A stretch of 64,000 nucleotides of DNA. It comes from Pisolithus tinctorius (Eukaryota > Basidiomycota > Agaricomycetes > Boletales > Pisolithaceae). Of the stretch, positions 17,330-62,124 are shown piece by piece. The DNA lies in NCBI GenBank assembly GCA_024663395.1, contig JANFAH010000012.1:186001-250000 (forward strand), in the 5' to 3' direction. Under the pieces are notes generated by a model, which saw only the letters and a list, made by a program, of their open reading frames with translations, was not told the origin of the DNA and searched no databases. Made by a program: the position numbers and the translations under genes. How positions within the stretch are numbered: position 1 is the stretch's first letter; each line of letters opens with the position of its first letter.

Positions 17330-18525
17330 ACCCAATATGGATAGGCCTGTCCATTTGCAGTGAGCTATCTATGATACAATGGATTGGCCCACCTTATGCA
17401 GTGCCAAGGGTTTGTAATCCTGCAATGGATGGATTGGCCTGTCTTATGCTGTAACACCGGTTTTTGTTTTCCCTTATCTGCTGCCTGAGAATACCATGGA
17501 TGGGCCTGTCCTTATGTAGATCCCTTTGATCTCCCTTTCTGCCACCTGAGAATGCCTTACATGGGCCATCCTTATGTAGATAGCTTGGATCTCCCTTTCT
17601 GCTGCCTGAGAATACCATACATGGACTTGTCCTTATGTTGTGACAGGGGTGCATCTGGCTAGATGGGCCTGTCCATTTGTTGTGACGATATACATGATAC
17701 TACTGAAGGCCTGTCTTTATGTTTCATCAGAGGTACATCTTAATGTGGACAGGCCTGTCCATATGCTGTGACAATATAAATAATACTACTGAAGGGCCCA
17801 TCCATATGCTGTGACTCTATTAAATGATATTAGTGACAGGCCCATCTTTATGTTTTGACAGGGTACATCTTACTGGGGCTGGGCCTGCCCATATGTTGTG
17901 ACAATATAAATAATACTACTGAATGGCCTGTCCATATGTTGTGATGCTATACATGAGATTACTGATGGGCCTGTCTTTATGTTTCATCAGAGGTACATCT
18001 TACTGTGGATGGGCCCATCCACATGTTGCATAATACTACTGATGGGCCCAACCTTATGTTGTGACTCTATTAAATGATACTTGTGATGGGCCTGTCTTTA
18101 TGTTTCAACAGCAGTACATCTTACTGTTGACAGGCCCATCCATATGTTGTGACATTATGAAACAACATTACTGATGGGCCCATCTTTATGTTGCAACAGA
18201 GGTATGGCTTATTATGAATGGGCCTGTCTAGATGTTGTGACACCATAAATGATATTACTCCTGGGCCTGTCCATATGTTGCCAACTTTGTATTCTAATCA
18301 TAGACAGGCCTGTCCTTATGCTGTGACCCTCTCCATGTTATGATAGGCAGGCCCACCTTGATGTTGCAACAGGGGTGTAACCTACCAGGATGGGCCCATC
18401 CATGTCTTACAGCAGCTCAGTATACTTAATTGGTCACAGGCCCATCTAAATGTTTCAGCATCCTTACCCACCACAGGCCCTCCCATATGTTGTGGTAATG
18501 CACTTACAGGCCCGTACATATGTTG
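17330..18525. repeat. Satellite array of about 44-bp monomers with a three-monomer higher-order unit
   Basis: Each monomer begins with a variant of 'gggcctgtccatatgttgtg' and recurs about every 42-46 bp, for roughly 27 copies. Two monomer types are clear. One continues 'acaatataaataatactact'; the other continues 'tttcatcagaggtacatctta'. The second type recurs near 17,709, 17,840, 17,968, 18,088 and 18,176, so spacing is close to three monomers for the first four. A lone monomer fragment, 'caggcccatct', sits at about 19,602, after the foldback and MITE. Confidence 0.85.
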
Positions 18526-53504: not shown

Positions 53505-56500
53505 ATGGCTTCTGGATGGTTCAGCAGACTCTGTGACTTACGGCCGCATTCACGAGTTCCGCGAAGCAAGGCTGTCGTTCCACGAGTTTCAATCGAAGTC
53601 ACTCAAACAAGTACGTCTCAGACAAAGCAAACTACACTGGCTGAATTTATTTGGGTGCCGTCTTCCCTAGGCAGTGCGAATCTTCATGTCCCTGTACTGG
53701 CTGAGATTGCCACTCCTGCACTTGCTGAGGTTACGCATCGTGGTTCCACCCCAACAGGCATTCTTGCACCTGCACTGAGTGACGTTAGCATTCTTTCACG
53801 TTCTACTCAGGACACTGTGGAGAATCTTGTCTCTGGATTGACTGATTCAGTATGCATGAGTATGTATTTTACATCTTGATATCGGGCAAGGACTTTGAAT
53901 TATCCCAGAAACAATTTCTCCGAAAGCCAATTACTCCTTAGATCTCACCTTATCTAAAGGGCATATTGATCGCATCCACCGTTTTCGTATCCTTGTCATG
54001 GGCAGAGCAAATGCGGGAAAAACAACTATCTTACAGAGGATCTGTAACACTACGGATCAACCAGAGGTTTTCAATGGTGATGGGAAAAAGGTATGTAAGA
54101 GGCATGATCATTTCTTGAGCCTTGTCGTTGACTGTATCCAGGTTGATGCCACTATGGTGCAAGGTTCACTGGCAGTGAGACCATCTCCCCATTGAACATA
54201 GCTTGCTATTGATTGTTTCTAGCGTGGATACCACAGCATTGAGGATGAGCTGATCTTTAAGAGTAGTCCACGCTTTGTGTTCCATGATTCATGTGGTTTT
54301 GAAGCTGGGAGTGAAGCACAATTTGGTGTAGTGAAGGAATTTGTGATGGATCGTGCCAATACAGCCAAGCTAGACAAGAGAATACATGCTATTTGGTAAG
54401 TACTTCCTTGACTGACACTTGAAAGTTAAGCACTGTTGTTGGGTTAGGTTTTGCATCCCATTGAATGAGAGTCATAGGATGGTGTTGGCTGCTGAAAGAA
54501 AGTTTTTTGATGAGTGTGAAACTGGACATGGTGTGTTTACACTGGTATCTTTGCTTTCATGAATCTGAGGGCTTCCATAGTTCCTGTGATTGCATTGCTG
54601 ACCAAGGCAGACACCTTGGAACTTGAGGCTATGCAGGAGATTGAGGAGCTAGATGTAGGGATGGATAAAGCAAGGATTGCTGAGATACAGAGCAGGATGT
54701 TGGATGAGAGTCTTTCAAAAGCTAAAGATTGGTTGAGTGGGTTAAGGTTTCCACCCTGTGATTTCCTGCCCTTGACAGGTAGGCATTGCATATTACCATC
54801 CCTGTGGTTTTGGTTATAAATTGGTGTAGGGATGCAAAAAGAAGGTGCAAATTGCATGGCTCTACTCAAGTGCACAGCAGATTGTTTGAGTGAGGGGGCT
54901 CTGCAAAAGCTCCTTATATCAACACAACAAACAAATCTGGCAATGTGTATTGAATTTGCTGTGAAGAAGTGAGTGGCAAAGTTGAAGCTGAGGCATTGTA
55001 ATAACAATATGAAAGGTCCTTGAAGGCTTGCATGAAGGATGGTTATGGTTATAATGACCCTAGGCAGCTAGCAGTTCTTCTATCATCATGGTTTCCATAT
55101 GTGAGTTTATGTGTAGTATACATACATATGGAAGATGTATAAAACTGATTGTTTGATAGGATGTATGTGAAATCACCAAAGGTTATAGCAATAGATGCTG
55201 AACATTCCACTGAATGTATTCACTCTCACCCTGCTGGACTTGGGTTGGTAGTTTGTAAGTGGAGTTATGGCAGTAGAAGGTACAGGATGAAAGCTGATGA
55301 TGTTCATATCCTTTCTGTTTGACTTGGGTTGATAGGCAGTGAGTGGTGTCATGGCAAGTGATGCAGTGTGGATGTTGACAATCTTCACTTTCTCCTTTGA
55401 TTAATAGGAAGTGAGTGGTGTCATGGCAGATAGTGGACAGTGGATACTGATGATGTTTACTCTGCCCTGTTGGACTTTGGTTCATAGGCAGTAAGTAGGG
55501 TCATGGGAGCTGGTACAGCATGGATGCTGACCATGTCAACTTGTACCCACTGGACTTGGATTGACAGGCAGTGAGTAGAGTTATGGTAGTGGTGGAGTAT
55601 TGCTGACCACATCCACTCTACCCCTGCCTTGTTGGACTTGGGTTGATAGGATGTGAGTGCAATCATAGAGGTGGAGGAGATTGGATGCTGATGATGTTTA
55701 CTCCCCATATTGGGCTTTGGCTGACAGGCAGTGAGTAGAAACAGGGCAGGAGGCTATGAATGCTGACCATGTTCACTCCCACTCCATTGGGCTTTGTGGT
55801 GATAGGCAGTAAGTAGAGGCAAAGCAGCATGTAATGGAGTAAGGATACTGACCATGTTTACTCTCATCCTGCTATAGTGGGTGAGTGCTGCCATGACAGA
55901 TGGTAAAGGTCAGATGTTGACACTCTCATCCTCCTGGGCTTTTGTTGATAGGAAGTGAGTGGAGTCTTGGCAAAGGTGAAGGCTGGATGCTGATTATATT
56001 CACTCCCACTTGGTTTTATAGTTGGTGAGTGGAACCATGGCAGCAAGTAATAGAGTGTGGATGCTGATTATGTATGTTTGCTCCTACCCTGCTGGACTTG
56101 GGTTGCTAGTGGGTAAGTGAGGGCATGGCAATGGATGCTGACCATGTCCACTTACAACCTCTTTGACAGGATGTGAGTGAAATCATGGCAGGAGTATAGG
56201 GTAGACTCTGATTATGTTCCCTCATACTCTGTTTGACTTGGATTGATAGCTGGTGAGTGAAGTGTTGAAAATGGTGGAGGTTGAGTGCTAACTCCACCTG
56301 GTTGGGCTGATAGTGGGTGGGTGGATTCATAGTAGATGGTGAATGTATAATGTTGACCACGTTCACTGCCACCCTCTTGCATTTGTTTTGATAGAATGTG
56401 AGTGGAGCCACAGCAGTGGTGGCAGTTGCACACAGATGCTGACTGTGTTTATTCTGCTTTTGTGGACTTGCTTCAATAGCAAGTAAGTTATCTTTGAAGA

Positions 56501-57268
56501 ATGTGCCTACTTGGTAAAATCATTTGTAGTAGATGGTAAGTTTCATTGATCTAGACATACCAGAAAATTTAATCATCTATTCTCAGGATGTATGTGTGCT
56601 CCATTATCATCAAATGCAGTGTTGACAATGGTATCTCCACATGCAACCATCAGACAGTCAGTCATGACCACCTTTGAATGTCTGATAACTTCTCATTCCC
56701 TCACACAGAATGTATGCATCCTCATTTTCTATTGTGACTTAAATATGCAGAGTGACCAATATATTTTACAGCTGGTTTGTGGCTATATCTCCCCCTCATG
56801 TCAACTCTCATAATAGCTGTGAAATACCACTTAGATGGTATGTTCCTTTTTTTCCTCACTGTTGTTTGGGGTCAATATCTGGTTGCCAAATGACAGTCTT
56901 TCATTCACAATCCATCAACTTCCAGTATTCCTGCATTATCAACTTCATTGAAATCTCCAATGAGGTTTATAGCAGAACATGGCATTGGTGGGCAATATCT
57001 CAGGTTTTTTGACATGACAAAACTTATAACAGCAGGAACTATTCTTGTGTTTGAATCTTTGTACTTCTTGTTGCAAGTCAAGAAGGAAAGTCAGCAAGAT
57101 ATTCAAGCACATGTAACACTGGCTGTTGAGCAATATCAGACATCAGGTGTCCAAGGTAGAGTTATTAAACTGATTGAGGAAGCTTTTTCAAGGCATGGTG
57201 AGAATGTGGAAGATTTATGGCCTGTTCTTGTGGATATTGCAAAGGAGAATCAAATGTGTAAGGCTTAA
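53505..57268 (+). CDS. P-loop G-domain GTPase with a microexon array
   Basis: The start MASGWFSRLCD is followed by a Ser/Thr-rich leader of about 120 residues. The G domain follows: G1 GRANAGKTT (54,001-54,027), G3 DSCGFE, then FCIPLNESHRMVLAAE and G4 TKAD within VPVIALLTKADTLELEAM. All introns from 53,830 to 55,100 splice in frame (branch CTRAY, YAG acceptors). After the exon ending LAVLLSSWFPY (55,100), the path to the last exon (about 56,926-57,268: IPALSTSLKSPMRFIAEHG...LLQVKKESQQDIQAH..., stop 57,266-57,268) consists of 20 or more three-base exons. A final two-base exon CT (56,817-56,818) before the last exon would keep frame. Members of this family are abundant in Agaricomycetes; their cellular role is unknown to me. 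No stop or frameshift is forced anywhere, so the gene looks intact. Confidence 0.75.
55101..56925 (+). repeat. Array of introns separated by single-codon (3-nt) exons
   Basis: Acceptor YAG, exactly three bases, then donor GTRAGT (or close) recurs. Triplet positions: GAT 55,160; TTT 55,252; GCA 55,336; GAA 55,408; GCA 55,488; GCA 55,568; GAT 55,650; GCA 55,728; GCA 55,806; TGG 55,878; GAA 55,952; TTG 56,022; TGG 56,110; GAT 56,170; CTG 56,250; TGG 56,314; AAT 56,395; CAA 56,480; ATG 56,533; GAT 56,587. Weaker candidates follow: TCA 56,658; AAT 56,709; CTG 56,772. Introns are 48-89 nt. About sixteen of them (55,163-56,479) are homologous, sharing a gtgagtggagtcatggcag-like start, 'ggatgctgaccatgttcact' (branch CTGAC) and 'tggacttgggttgatag' ends. 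The first intron and those after 56,483 are unrelated in sequence. Confidence 0.8.
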
Positions 57269-58014
57269 TTCTTTTGTGAATATGGCATACTCAAAAGCTT
57301 TCAATCAGCAAAGAACTTGTTGAAATAAAACCAAAAGTTGTTTTATAATGCCCTTTCTTGTTTGACTATGTTAGGATATTAAATCCTATCTCTGGACTGT
57401 GTTATGGTTATGAACCATTCTCTGAACTTTGGATCCATCCTTTGGTCAGCACATTGCATGTGACAGCAGTTCTAAAGGTTCTGTACATGATGGTAGGCAG
57501 AATCCATAGATGTGTACAGTGAGAAATACTGCATTGGAAACATTTCTCTTTTTTGCTGAAACCATTCAAAAAGTACTATCTCTACAGTACTTCACATGTA
57601 TGGTTAAATGCAATAATAAATCTTGTCTACACACATATCCATGCTGTTTCATGCATACTCACACATTTATGTCAACATGTTGATAGAAGGAAAATAATTT
57701 TGTGAGTTTGTGAGGACAAGGGTAAAATTCTGATGCAGTGAGTAAGACCAGGGGGCCTCTAGAGCCTGGGTCTAGACTAGATAGGATGTCTGAGGGAGGT
57801 GATGACAATGTACAAGGAACACCCTTGACAGCAGTTTTTGGCCATTCCCACAGTCTTTAGACATAGTTTATGTGTACATGAGAATAGGTCATATAGATGC
57901 CATCCTCAGGGTGAGGCTTGTGCCAATTCCAAAAATAGTTGCATCATCTATGAGCCTCCAATGCCATAATGAATTCCCTAGATACTGTATGTATGTAAGG
58001 CAACATCTGCTAAC
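57269..58014. other. 3' flank of the GTPase, no gene seen
   Basis: CpG-poor, without motif-bearing frames. Confidence 0.4.
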
Positions 58015-58255
58015 CTTTGTGAGTCACTCTTAAGAGCCACTGGTGGCAGTTCACCATAGTAGACTTACATTTCTGAGAAGCTATACTGAGGGTCTTGCTG
58101 AAGCTTTTTTGTGTTCTGTGACAATCCAGGGTGCAGGCTCCACAAACTTTTGTGAGTAGCTCTTAAGAGCCACTGGCAGTGGTCCACTGGAGTAGACTGA
58201 TGTTGCTGAGAGGCTATGCTGAGGGTCTCAGTGGAGTTTTTTTTTGTGTTCAAAA
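58015..58255. repeat. Tandem duplication of about 130 bp
   Basis: 'tttgtgagtcactcttaagagccactgg' (58,016) and its copy (58,148) are followed by matching 'gtagactgatgttgctgagaggctatgctgagggtct' variants. Two diverged units. Confidence 0.7.
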
Positions 58256-58542
58256 CCATATGTTTTTTTGTGTTCTTTGTGGCAGTCATCCTATACAATA
58301 TGTTTTCTTTGGTTAGTTTTGAGCTTGGTCACATGAGTATGATTTGCAGTGCATAAATTAATTGTATTGGGGGTATACAGAACATGGTGTGTATCAATGA
58401 CCAACACATACTGTGCATGAGATCTTGGAAGAGTATTGTAAATTTTTAAAAAAGTTTTCTCTCAAGAATAATAAGGAAGATGTATGCAAATGGTAACATG
58501 TAAGCTTGAAAAACACCAATCCCCAGAAGCTAGAACAGCAGG

Positions 58543-58914
58543 CTACTCAGTAGCAGACTCAGACTTTGTGGTGTCACTGGGATGTGGCAGAAGAGGAGTA
58601 GCACCAACAGCAACCTCTGGGATAATAGCAGTCTGGCTGACAGGAGCAGGGTCATGGCAGAAGTGAGAATCATCATACCTTCCCCTGCCAAAGTAGTAAT
58701 CTGGCACATAAGTGATAGTGACATGCTGGATGTTGTGGTTTGGATGTCCCATGTTACTAGTCTGTGGCTGTGGCATGGTTGATGGTGTGCCCTCCATGTA
58801 TGATCTGTAAGATGGATGGCCAGATGGTGGATATGGGGGAGGATAGGGAACTGCTGGATGGTTGTACCATCCTCCATGAATGATAGTGTTGTAATCATAA
58901 GGTACCCCTGGCAT
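58543..58914 (-). CDS. Hypothetical Pro/Tyr-rich protein
   Basis: The minus-strand frame starts MPGVPYDYNTIIHGGWYNH, continues with YPPPYPPSGHPSYRSYMEG and QPQTSNMGHPNHNIQH, and ends PSDTTKSESATE. Composition is that of a disordered Pro/Tyr/His-rich protein. No domain is recognised. An alternative overlapping minus frame (58,530-59,033) is less protein-like. Confidence 0.35.
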   Translation of the reverse strand: MPGVPYDYNTIIHGGWYNHPAVPYPPPYPPSGHPSYRSYMEGTPSTMPQPQTSNMGHPNHNIQHVTITYVPDYYFGRGRYDDSHFCHDPAPVSQTAIIPEVAVGATPLLPHPSDTTKSESATE

Positions 58915-59132
58915 CTGCCATGGTGGGATACCTGGCCCAGGGAGCCACTTGGTGAAAGTATGTCATTGCAAGGGATGATTGAACTGCATAGCATGGAGAG
59001 GGTGAGGTACATTGTAGCTGATATGCAGGCCACCAGGAACCAAGGTCAAACTTGAATGCATGCCATGAAGGGAATGTGGACTGGTTTGCTGAGTACTGTC
59101 AGCCTAGTGTTTCCATGACTTTGGCTTGCTGC

Positions 59133-59255
59133 TGGCTATTAGTCATAGCCAGTGCTGGTTTAGCTGGGCCAAGCATAAGCCAGAGGCACAGCTTCTCACA
59201 GCTTTAAGGTGGCTATGCTAGCTGTGGCTAGTGACTTTAAGCTGACTAATAGCCA
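59133..59255. mobile_element. 123-bp MITE-like element with perfect 13-bp inverted ends
   Basis: TGGCTATTAGTCA (59,133-59,145) and its reverse complement (59,243-59,255) bound a stretch rich in 'ctagc' and 'gctatg' sub-palindromes. No target duplication is clear. Confidence 0.55.
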
Positions 59256-60600
59256 GGTCATTTACACTGTAAAATTAATAAGTGGATTGACAAGGGCATG
59301 ATACACAAGACAGTTCAATTTGTCCTTTGCATGCTGGGATGTCATGACTCAATGTATCCTAACATATATGCCTATTTGTAACTTTAAATATCCTACTTAA
59401 CTATACTTGTTCTGGCTTGAGTGTACAACATTCAAACCCATTAGACAGCAGGAAATCTAATTTACTGGAAAAGTATCTATGGCACAGGCAATGCACAGAT
59501 ACAATGCACCTAATGAACCTACAAAACACTTGACAGCTCTCAGCAATGTGGCTGGTAATATATGCCATGGATTAGCTGGAGGATGCTGGAGTGGGGAGAC
59601 AGGGCCCAGGGAGATGTGTGTGACTGAGAAGACTGATTGATTGCTCATAGGAAGGGGCTGCTAGAGTATATGGGCTGCAAAGGGAGAGTTGACTGCAGAA
59701 GTGTGTCATCACTGGTAGGATTTTCTGGGGTCCAATGTTGACTGCTGGGTAGCTTCTCAGCTTGCTGCCCCTGGGTATGACCAATTTTCCAGCAGCCCAG
59801 ATGGGCTAGTTGGCAGGTACTGTGGAGGTGCAGGACTGAGGGAAGTTGATTGCAGACTAGATTGTAGTAATGGCAGTGAGAAGGAAGGTGGTAGAGGTGA
59901 ATACTGCAGACTGGTTGATGAATAGCCAGGAGATGTGAGATTGAGAATGGGTAATATTGGAGAGTATGTTGGTGATGTAGCCCCTCTGCTCCTGACATAG
60001 AGTGGAGATGTTGCATACTATGGCAATGTGCCAAATGGTGAGGTTGCTCTACCATATGGAGATTGAGGGATATAAGGTGATGTGGGCAAGTACACATTGG
60101 GAGAAGTCAGGCTATACCCAGGGCATAGCAACTATGTTTTGCACTGGCAGAAAATGATTGATGATGGCATCATTCAGGACCAAGTTCAACATTGTGTCCT
60201 CAAGTTGGCAGAGGAAAATGTCTTCTTTGACTGTACCCTGCCCATAACTTCACCACTGCTATCAGACATTTGACATCCTTGGGTAGGATTTTGCACTGGA
60301 GGGTCTGTGAGGCAGTTGAAATTGAGACAGGTGTGATCTCAGCAGAATCAAAGTATTTACCAAATGGCAGGTGAAGCATATGTGAACATTCTCACCTTCA
60401 ACAAGGTTGGTATGTGCTCCATTGAGGAGTATTCTGGTGAACTCCCATCAGCAGAGATCATGTAGGATCTCCTCATTACATACCAGAAGTGCAAAGAGAA
60501 ACTCATGCAATTGTTGTGTTTGCTGAAAGGAGTGTTTTTACAAGAAATCTAATGATAACAACAGTGAATCCATAATGGGAAATATGTTTGCACACATGTA
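59256..60600. other. Unrecognised region with open frames on both strands
   Basis: A minus frame at 59,645-60,097 is His/Ser/Leu-rich, and an overlapping minus frame (59,572-59,784) reads WCKIGHT-like material without motif. A plus frame at 60,082-60,273 reads YPGHSNYVLHWQKMIDDGII. None is recognised and I do not call a gene. Confidence 0.25.
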
Positions 60601-60609
60601 GTGGCCCCT

Positions 60610-61500
60610 AGGTGATCAGCACCATACTACTACACTTTTTTGGTAATCACTACACCACAAAAAGCACACTATAGGGCTATCCCATACTACTACTGACTTG
60701 TGGTAACCAAATTGGTAGTAGTTTAGTAGCCCATTAGCCAACAACCCTAATCAATTGAACTTTCTTGGTAATCAAAAAAGCACACTCTAGGGCTATCCTG
60801 TACCACTACCAACTTGTGGTAGTCAAGTTGCTAGTAGTTTACTTGTCCATTAGCCAACATCCTGAGTCAACTTCACTTCTTTGGTAGTTGAAAAGTGTAC
60901 TCTAGTACTACACAATACTACCAATTTGTGGAAATCAAATAGGTAGTAGACAAAGTAGCCCTATAGTAGGAAAAGGAAGTTGTCTGGTTGGCTTTGTGCT
61001 GTTGTGTAAAAGGCATGAGTTTTGGTGTCCAAAATTGTATGCTTTTGTGCATTTGGTGGATGGAAACTTTCTTGAGGTTTAGTGTCTGTGCCACACTACA
61101 CAATTTCCTAATCATCACTACACTTTTTTGCTAATCAAGCATTCCCCTTCCTTTGTAGTCACTCTACACTTTTGGTAGTCAAACATGCACACTACACTTC
61201 ACTACACTTACTTGGTAATAGAAAATGTGGACTCTACACAATAAAGCTACACTACACTACACTACCCTTTTTTGACAGCCAAACATGCAAACACCACACT
61301 ACTCTTTTTGGTGGCCAAACATGCAAACACCACACTACCCTTTTTTGGTAGTCAGAATTTTGGACAATACACAAACACTACACTACACCCTTTTGGTAGT
61401 AAAACATGTAGACACTTATTAGGTAATCAAAAAAGCGGACACTACCCAACAAACCACTACATTTTTGGTAGTGAAACATGTAGAACCACAGGAAGTAGTC
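60610..61500. repeat. Two neighbouring tandem arrays built on 'ttggtagt' motifs
   Basis: From 60,640 to 60,960 a unit of about 120 bp ('actctagggctatcc...ttgtggtagtcaa...ggtagtagtttagtagccc') occurs three times. From about 61,085 to 61,490 a shorter unit ('cactacactttttggtagtcaaacatg', 45-60 bp) recurs about eight times. Both share the ACTAC/GGTAGT theme, so one may derive from the other. Confidence 0.75.
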
Positions 61501-62124
61501 ACAGAATGATGATGTCAAGATGAAAGTTATAGTTCCAATATGCTCATCCAGTGAGTGCCAACATTGTTCCTGCCATGGGTCTTTGCAAGATGTACAATTA
61601 ACCAATCCTATAATACCCCTGATGGAAGTGCATTTTTCTTTTTACTACACCCAACTTCTGCAGGACAAAGCCCCTTTAGGGCCAAGACTAAACTCATCCT
61701 ACCTTTATTATTTTCCACTGGCCCAGGCTGTAAGGCCCTCCAGTGGTCCACTGTGTTCCTGCCATGTGTTTTACTCATCTTGCCCTGGTGTTGTGGGAGA
61801 GGCTCTAGATGTCTGCAAGGTTGATCATTACTGACATGTACCTGTCTGCACTGGGCAGAGAGTACCAGACAACTGGGTGGGGTGGCATCTGCTGTGGAGG
61901 AATCATGCATGAGCATTTGATTCTATGTACAACTTGATGTGGGGTTTCATGTTGAGTTGGGTGGCTTGCAGCAGTGGGTGGCTTGGTGTTGAGGTTAGGT
62001 GCCTGAGCAATCCTCCATGGTGATGCACTATATTCCCACTGCAACTGTGTTGCAGTTGTGTGGTGAAGGCAGGTTTGGAAGGTTTGGGTATAGACATGCC
62101 TCTTGTAGGTTCTGTGGAGGAGTA
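61501..62124. other. 3' flank of the LINE, no gene called
   Basis: Short overlapping frames on both strands without motifs. It is the region just downstream of the LINE stop on the minus strand. Confidence 0.4.

Follow-up and report, generated by a model that had tools for sequence, protein, structure and literature searches.

A family of GTPase genes in Pisolithus tinctorius with arrays of predicted single-codon exons

Pisolithus tinctorius is an ectomycorrhizal basidiomycete and a partner of tree roots. A stretch of its genome, 64,000 nucleotides (nt) of contig JANFAH010000012.1 (assembly GCA_024663395.1, positions 186,001 to 250,000, forward strand), is referred to here as the window and contains a GTPase gene in which 24 exons of three bases each are predicted to follow one another. 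Introner elements are near-identical introns found at many places in one genome. Near-identical introns occur here in many copies as well, but among the matches listed the copies lie in one gene family, head to tail and with a spacing of 3 nt. Consecutive short exons divisible by three are also known from the micro-exon genes (MEGs) of flatworms (PMC7653826, PMC4015677). The working definition in PMC7653826 asks for a minimum of 7 exons, half or more of which are micro-exons (shorter than 70 nt and divisible by three), and for a run of at least 4. The model of the window gene, with 34 exons, 25 of them shorter than 70 nt and divisible by three, and a predicted run of 24, fits this definition. 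MEG products are described as mostly having signal peptides and being varied by exon skipping (PMC4015677, PMC7653826). What sets the genes presented here apart is that the predicted exons of an array are uniformly of one codon and number from 24 to about 75 in a run, that near-identical repeats form the introns, and that the variation lies in the genes themselves.

Two further systems resemble this one in their mode of variation. In the het-d, het-e and het-r (HNWD) family of Podospora, the coding WD40 repeat is conserved and four codons per repeat vary (PMC1805685, PMC2873952). Both are fungal families with concerted evolution within and between loci, few hypervariable codon positions and an unstable number of repeats. 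However, the conserved repeat in P. tinctorius is the intron, a lone exonic codon is the variable part, and no WD40 or STAND domain was found in a Pfam scan of four proteins of the family (P0010, P0009, P0001 and P0012). The HYP effectors of potato cyst nematodes (PMC11228951) likewise have a hypervariable centre between conserved flanks, and the number and order of their motifs vary by allele. Their motifs are coding and belong to single loci, whereas here there is one codon per intron-bounded unit, a whole gene family is involved, and near-identical duplicates are found without codon change.

Splicing of exons as short as one to three bases is documented by the isolated 1- to 3-nt exons of plant APC11 and VPS55 (PMC8831610) and the 3-bp exon of Drosophila homothorax (PMC7392893). 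Those exons are single, while here they occur in runs of dozens. A search of the open-licence literature for 3-nt exons and runs of microexons listed isolated 3-nt exons, the RPS24 microexons and the flatworm micro-exon genes; no paper was found in it on microexons in Pisolithus, nor one on single-codon exons, an absence that is not a proof. The outline is MEG-like, but no counterpart was found in this literature to the uniform one-codon runs, the homogenised introns and the variability at the level of single codons.

The window gene lies on the plus strand throughout and was modelled from 53,942 to a TAA stop ending at 57,328. The model consists of 34 exons (7 before the array, 24 of three bases and 3 after it) and has no internal stop. 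Position 53,942 is only the 5' start of the model, since the database protein P0010 has additional 5' exons further upstream. The features are as follows.

53942..54090, +, GTPase exon with the P-loop GRANAGKTT; open frame, matched by P0010 (M404DRAFT_611050)
54142..54174, +, GTPase exon of 33 nt, equal to VDATMVQGSLA of P0010; gene model
54223..54395, +, GTPase exon; gene model
54448..54530, +, GTPase exon; gene model
54581..54778, +, GTPase exon with the TKAD motif; gene model
54830..54968, +, exon whose end is the end of P0010; gene model and P0010
55016..55100, +, final large exon 5' of the array, ending in WFPY in phase 0; gene model
55101..56896, +, array of 24 three-base exons alternating with 25 introns of 50-89 nt
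55160..55162, +, codon exon 1, GAT (D); gene model
55252..55254, +, codon exon 2, TTT (F); gene model
55336..55338, +, codon exon 3, GCA (A); gene model
55408..55410, +, codon exon 4, GAA (E); gene model
55488..55490, +, codon exon 5, GCA (A); gene model
55568..55570, +, codon exon 6, GCA (A); gene model
55650..55652, +, codon exon 7, GAT (D); gene model
55728..55730, +, codon exon 8, GCA (A); gene model
55806..55808, +, codon exon 9, GCA (A); gene model
55878..55880, +, codon exon 10, TGG (W); gene model
55952..55954, +, codon exon 11, GAA (E); gene model
56022..56024, +, codon exon 12, TTG (L); gene model
56110..56112, +, codon exon 13, TGG (W); gene model
56170..56172, +, codon exon 14, GAT (D); gene model
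56250..56252, +, codon exon 15, CTG (L); gene model
56314..56316, +, codon exon 16, TGG (W), donor GTGGGT; hand-placed
56395..56397, +, codon exon 17, AAT (N); gene model
56480..56482, +, codon exon 18, CAA (Q); gene model
56533..56535, +, codon exon 19, ATG (M), where the recurring tail begins; tail searches
56587..56589, +, codon exon 20, GAT (D), tail; tail searches
56654..56656, +, codon exon 21, ACA (T), tail, donor GTCAGT; tail searches
56709..56711, +, codon exon 22, AAT (N), tail; tail searches
56772..56774, +, codon exon 23, CTG (L), tail, donor GTTTGT; tail searches
56835..56837, +, codon exon 24, ATG (M), tail, fitting residue 1 of the database protein P0001; P0001 and tail searches
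56897..56987, +, first large exon 3' of the array (TCTTTC...); P0001
57036..57257, +, C-terminal exon; P0001
57309..57328, +, last exon with the stop TAA; P0001

Joined together, the 24 three-base exons give the 72 bases GATTTTGCAGAAGCAGCAGATGCAGCATGGGAATTGTGGGATCTGTGGAATCAAATGGATACAAATCTGATG, which encode DFAEAADAAWELWDLWNQMDTNLM. On the evidence of the sequence, these 24 units are likely to be spliced, in frame and with one codon per exon, to the exon that ends at 55,100 on one side and the exon that starts at 56,897 on the other. Each array intron is complete with its own signals, which makes intron definition the natural mode; the spliceosome would pair the donor, branch site and acceptor of every 50-89-nt intron, and a 3-nt exon would then need no definition itself. 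The resulting protein would be a GTPase in which a variable insert, to which every three-base exon adds one residue, separates the G domain from a helical C-terminal domain. Gain or loss of a unit would alter the protein by one residue and always keep the frame.

The strict pattern YAG-NNN-GTRAGT has 17 matches on the plus strand in 55,000-57,000, compared with a mean of 0.068 and a maximum of 2 in 1000 dinucleotide shuffles of 55,101-56,930. With the looser donor GT[AG][AT]G there are 21 matches (shuffle mean 0.67, maximum 6). When spacings from 0 to 15 were tried in 55,000-57,000 with the strict donor, just one match was obtained at any spacing other than 3, namely at 6. Spacing 0 is absent, and recursive splicing with empty exons (AG/GT) was rejected on this ground. 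Three extra units with the donors GTGGGT, GTCAGT and GTTTGT were placed by hand to give the total of 24, and they agree with a chain search that was blind to codon identity except for a penalty on stops. Every 3-nt unit lies between predicted splice sites and is well within the limit of about 30 nt used for microexons. A branch-like CTRAY/TTGAC motif is present, 12-55 nt upstream of the acceptor, in 18 of the 23 introns between units.

The mean pairwise difference of the window introns beside the triplets is 0.66-0.67, computed with a unit list that differs at one position from the final one. Tandem Repeats Finder, run on the window, did not report the array at 55,101-56,896. The array is thus old. 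All 24 exons are nevertheless 3 nt long, despite introns that are near saturation and differ in length by up to 39 nt.

The original prediction, of at least 20 successive 3-nt units, is confirmed by the 24 units separated by 25 introns. Its consensus of YAG, three bases and GTRAGT holds for the acceptor, which is YAG in all 24 units, and not for the donor throughout, which is GTRAGT in 17 of 24 and is replaced in several of the 3' introns. The upstream exons were said to end in phase 0, the triplets to include no stop and the downstream exon to join in frame; the 34-exon model, open to its TAA, bears this out. The downstream exon had been placed at about 56,926, where the frame would be broken; its real start is 56,897. 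The prediction did not include the extent of the arrays in the gene family, the homogenised introns or the turnover of codons, all three of which were found in the present analysis.

The genome searched comprises 92.5 Mb in 221 contigs, and the C-terminal exon of the window gene has 130 matches in it. Thirty-seven paralogue loci were fetched, these being the best-scoring C-terminal matches and one locus chosen through the database protein P0009. Arrays of at least 5 chained units are present in 36 of them, a fraction that is no estimate for all 130 matches; L028 is the sole fetched paralogue without a codon array. This recurrence supports the original interpretation of the units as single-codon exons. 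With the window there are 37 arrays, from which 7 near-duplicates (L012, L014, L019, L034, L035, L044 and L048) were excluded. The pooled set of 30 distinct loci contains 1,171 units, and 1,079 strict triplets remained after the removal of 92 units filled in by a loose rule; some triplet counts were made on a smaller sample of 582 triplets, taken from 15 loci in addition to the window. The largest arrays are L024 with 75 detected units and L023 with 72, each read across two joined pieces, and L036 has at least 68 units, its array beginning at the edge of the fetched stretch. In 26 loci of the pooled 30, the motif WFP[Y/F] followed directly by GT stands 5' of the array.

At the 1,079 strict sites of the pooled set the donor is GTGAGT in 902 and the acceptor TAG in 975, and the median array intron is 75 nt. 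Of 1,132 array introns, 945 have the branch-like motif within 12-55 nt upstream of the acceptor, as against 186 after shuffling. Genome-wide, a pattern of two successive 3-base units gives 1,355 forward and 1,499 reverse matches (2,854), and its reversed control gives 0; this control and the shuffles rule out a chance origin of the array. The same pattern with 4-base units has 0 + 0 matches. Its reversed control has 216 + 176, which on reading are attributed to an array family with units like GTGAGTGATTTGAT at C1:2778066-2781180.

It is important to consider whether the triplets behave as codons. At the middle triplet of the genome-wide pattern, TAA or TGA occurs in 4 matches, two of which sit at duplicate places (C15 and C32), while AAA, CAA, GAA, AGA, CGA or GGA occurs in 778. 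The strict triplets contain 1 stop in 1,079. One TGA triplet each is present in L011 and L033, that of L033 in a loose-rule unit. Triplets that would create new splice sites are also avoided: there are few AAG, CAG, AGG, NTA or NGT triplets and no TAG. A final C, which would form a CpG with the donor, is found in none of the 1,079. The near-absence of stops counts, at the level of sequence, as evidence for translation.

The two TGA triplets could also mean that the arrays belong to decaying or silent copies that are not expressed as protein. Repeats under methylation are often depleted of CpG, and the strong CpG depletion of the region would suit such copies. The window model is open over 34 exons, however, a saturated array has kept its splice signals, and P0001 has the look of a protein made from the window gene; we regard this explanation as very improbable.

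The strongest case of conservation concerns L010 and L016, which are neighbours on C63 and have C-terminal exons 77% identical in protein. Their array peptides align with a score of 151, compared with a maximum of 97 in 2000 shuffles of the order. Their introns are 0.685 identical at homologous positions and 0.641 at other positions, and in 7 of 53 cases the intron that matches best is the homologous one. Over the whole array, triplets differ at 46 of 163 sites and introns at 1,432 of 4,384. The codon positions are thus conserved in this pair though the introns have nearly lost their positional homology. A recurring codon tail is found at the end of the arrays, M-D-T-N-L-M in the window and commonly M-D-H-N-L-V. 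The D codon is at its place in the tail in all 29 loci listed by the chain search (codon-blind except for the stop penalty), and the full six-codon tail is present in 22 of 30 loci in a search constrained at codon positions 2, 5 and 6. Synonymous variants (TTG/CTG/CTA and GTG/GTT) occur in the tail. Both the positional conservation of the L010/L016 peptide and the conserved tail across paralogues support the original interpretation.

Database proteins bear on the splicing in different ways. P0001 is identical to what 56,835-57,328 encodes once three introns are taken out. It begins with M, which agrees with ATG, the last one-codon exon, but not with TAT, the end of the exon before the array. 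A transcript joining 55,100 directly to about 56,926, which would have spoken against the array, misfits this first residue. The source tag of P0001 is lgn, which we take to mean the Logan assemblies, and the protein is most simply a transcript contig. P0010, from strain Marx 270, matches the GTPase part of the window gene. P0009 (BKA82DRAFT_4213248), a deposited model, can be read in L049 by passing in order through 19 of the 3-base exons predicted there, and none of 200 sequences with a shuffled middle allows this. This shows annotation already threading 3-base exons, not RNA doing so. Searches with the array peptides of L018 and the window gene found P0009, in another phase, as the sole array-bearing protein.

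Several observations weigh against in-frame splicing of the array. The units are related by descent, so their repeated splice signals are not independent observations. TAA or TGA after YAG would form a second perfect donor over the acceptor, and the rarity of stops may partly be a splicing effect; TAT in this position likewise forms a fungal-type donor, GTATGT, and yet is common (40 of 1,079), which speaks against splicing as the cause. Strong conservation of the peptide is seen in 1 of 406 array pairs, that of L010 and L016, and the median z is 0, so that most arrays are without demonstrated peptide constraint. In L017 and L021 the triplets differ more (33 of 52) than the introns (411 of 1375). 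P0001 supports the last unit alone and could be a splice-aware prediction from genomic DNA; transcript-like support thus extends at most to the last of the 24 one-codon exons. No transcript across the array appeared in protein searches, including those with spliced peptides of the window gene and L018. The deposited model P0010 ends at 54,968, before the array, P0011 is without an array peptide, and P0009 is in a shifted phase, skips two predicted units and is possibly purely computational.

The last of these points also suit an intronic satellite, in which the unit happens to carry an acceptor and a donor 3 bases apart and the whole region is excised, at once as a single intron or stepwise, so that no exon of it reaches the mature RNA. 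Tandem repetition of the unit is plain, and the 3-nt spacing could descend from a founder unit; the P0011 model and the missing array-spanning transcript point the same way. However, a satellite would not be expected to avoid stop triplets, or to keep the positional homology of the L010/L016 codons where the introns have lost theirs. The window introns are near saturation and vary in length by 39 nt with every exon still 3 nt, and the first residue of P0001 misfits the exon end TAT. Taking both sides together, we consider the satellite unlikely, and in-frame splicing of single-codon exons the probable interpretation.

The manner in which the arrays change is unusual. In the homogenised cores of 12 arrays, codons differ 5-54 times more per site than introns, from selection or from other causes. 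Among 911 intron pairs in the 12 arrays that differ at no more than one site, the distances between codons are near random: Hamming distances of 0, 1, 2 and 3 between the upstream codons occur 172, 217, 96 and 426 times, against 148, 222, 124 and 418 expected. In L018 the upstream triplet is common to 28 of 126 pairs of identical introns, compared with 13% by chance. One 75-nt intron is present at 8 loci in no fewer than 62 exact copies, and the codons next to it are of many kinds: around 48 of these copies, in six fetched loci, there are 15 different codons on the downstream side and 13 on the upstream side. The search with this intron gave 864 matches in all, and among the matches listed all are at 14 loci with the C-terminal exon of the family. 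The flanks of L018, L023, L026, L045 and L047 are 94-98% identical and their intron consensus is identical at 72-75 of 75 positions, while their codons are unrelated and their units number from 13 to 72. The 75-nt consensus common to L018, L023, L026 and L045 indicates concerted evolution within and between loci. It is the intron that is conserved as a repeat, and the exon that varies.

This pattern could also result from introner-like mobile introns inserted or replaced at codon boundaries, the codons being old and the introns young. The many exact copies of one intron, the 911 pairs in which the identity of the intron tells almost nothing about the upstream codon, and the near-identical duplicates without codon change agree with such an origin. 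Old shared coding sequence is not visible, however, since loci with near-identical flanks have unrelated codons and different numbers of units. The matches listed all lie in 14 loci of the family and none in an unrelated gene, and none of the paralogues was found to carry the codons together in a single exon. Mobile introns are in our opinion a doubtful explanation, somewhat less so than the satellite, and they concern the origin of the arrays; they are compatible with the predicted splicing of single-codon exons.

Two other processes were tried and rejected. Hypermutation of codons finds no support in six near-identical pairs (a count in which L015 enters two pairs) with changes at 0 of 564 triplet sites and 15 of 12,421 intron sites. 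L010 and L035 show 0 of 39 triplet changes and 81 of 1,225 intron changes; the sequences do not support fast change of codons at present. Duplication or exchange of blocks of several codons is not seen either, as the longest codon runs shared between arrays, and the runs repeated within arrays, do not differ from those of shuffles, and adjacent codons are only slightly autocorrelated (z 2.3 at lag 1 and 3.1 at lag 4). Linkage between codon and intron variants is strongest between the downstream codon and the 10 nt closest to it (0.557 of 61 pairs as against 0.18 by expectation); it has no smooth decay, and some distant bins are raised too.

Exchange of introns between loci combined with selection for varied codons fits best. 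Inter-locus exchange would keep the introns alike while the codons are kept or made different, and the variety of codons most likely comes from selection for varied peptides, though the proposed exchange has left no trace of blocks in the codon order. We tentatively propose, as a possibility less probable than the splicing itself, that thousands of single-codon exons in homogenised introns, which act as interchangeable homology arms, rewrite segments of about 10-75 residues and thereby provide a recognition repertoire of GTPases. The segments could then be lengthened, shortened or rewritten by single residues without a frameshift. A recognition role, of self and non-self or of the partner, is a guess from the mode of change.

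Should the splicing prove real, 3-base exons would be joined by the dozen, one after another, and the arrays would be a strong natural test of intron definition and of the lower limit of exon size. The usual logic of repeats is reversed, the non-coding spacer being conserved and the codon variable and decoupled from it. The family offers a direct way to test how introns stay alike without dragging the adjacent codons with them and how fungi make recognition diversity.

The Pfam scan of the four proteins gave GTPase-like and weak matches only. For MMR_HSR1, P0012 scores 24.3 against a cut-off of 21.9, and P0010 scores 20.8 (E 4.5e-4), which is below it; of the signature of the putative small-GTPase-like G domain, the P-loop GRANAGKTT and TKAD are visible. 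AlphaFold models P0009 with a G domain, an extended helical region and a helical C-terminus, at a mean predicted local distance difference test (pLDDT) of 67. Residues 317-380, a stretch that includes the position of the array, have a pLDDT below 50. The best Foldseek matches of this model include IRGa6/IIGP1, mitofusin, BDLP and G-alpha chains, at a template modelling score (TM) of about 0.3; at this value a kinship with immunity-related or dynamin-like GTPases is only a lead from modelling. A search of PDB sequences with the family alignment returned nothing.

The arrays lie in a blind spot of gene annotation. Only 2 of 61 collected database proteins (P0009 and P0011, both from P. tinctorius) have the GTPase together with the C-terminal domain in a single model. 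For several Pisolithus species and for Astraeus, public models are broken at the WFPY exon or ahead of it, and the C-terminal domain appears as separate small proteins. The arrays may extend more widely than P. tinctorius.

Some minor features may be added. The observed/expected ratio of CpG is about 0.1 at 1-20,500, about 1 at 20,500-53,900 and about 0.01 at 54,000-62,000 of the window. The second boundary crosses the GTPase gene, the 5' part of which is CpG-normal and the array nearly CpG-free, with a single CG within 55,101-56,900. The arrays L018, L020, L023, L024, L037 and L047 have codon preferences of their own: favoured residues are E and R in L037, L, D and A in L020, and S and R in L047, and in some of the six E is written GAG and not GAA. 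The region C1:2778066-2781180 contains 3-base units with a second intron family (about 82 nt, GTGAGTGATTTGATGGCAGG...) near a distant member of the family. A tandem repeat around GGGCCCATCCATATGTTGTGAC at 17,470-18,193 of the window resembles, on reading, a repeat in L028 (4301-5000) that stands ahead of the L028 tail exons.

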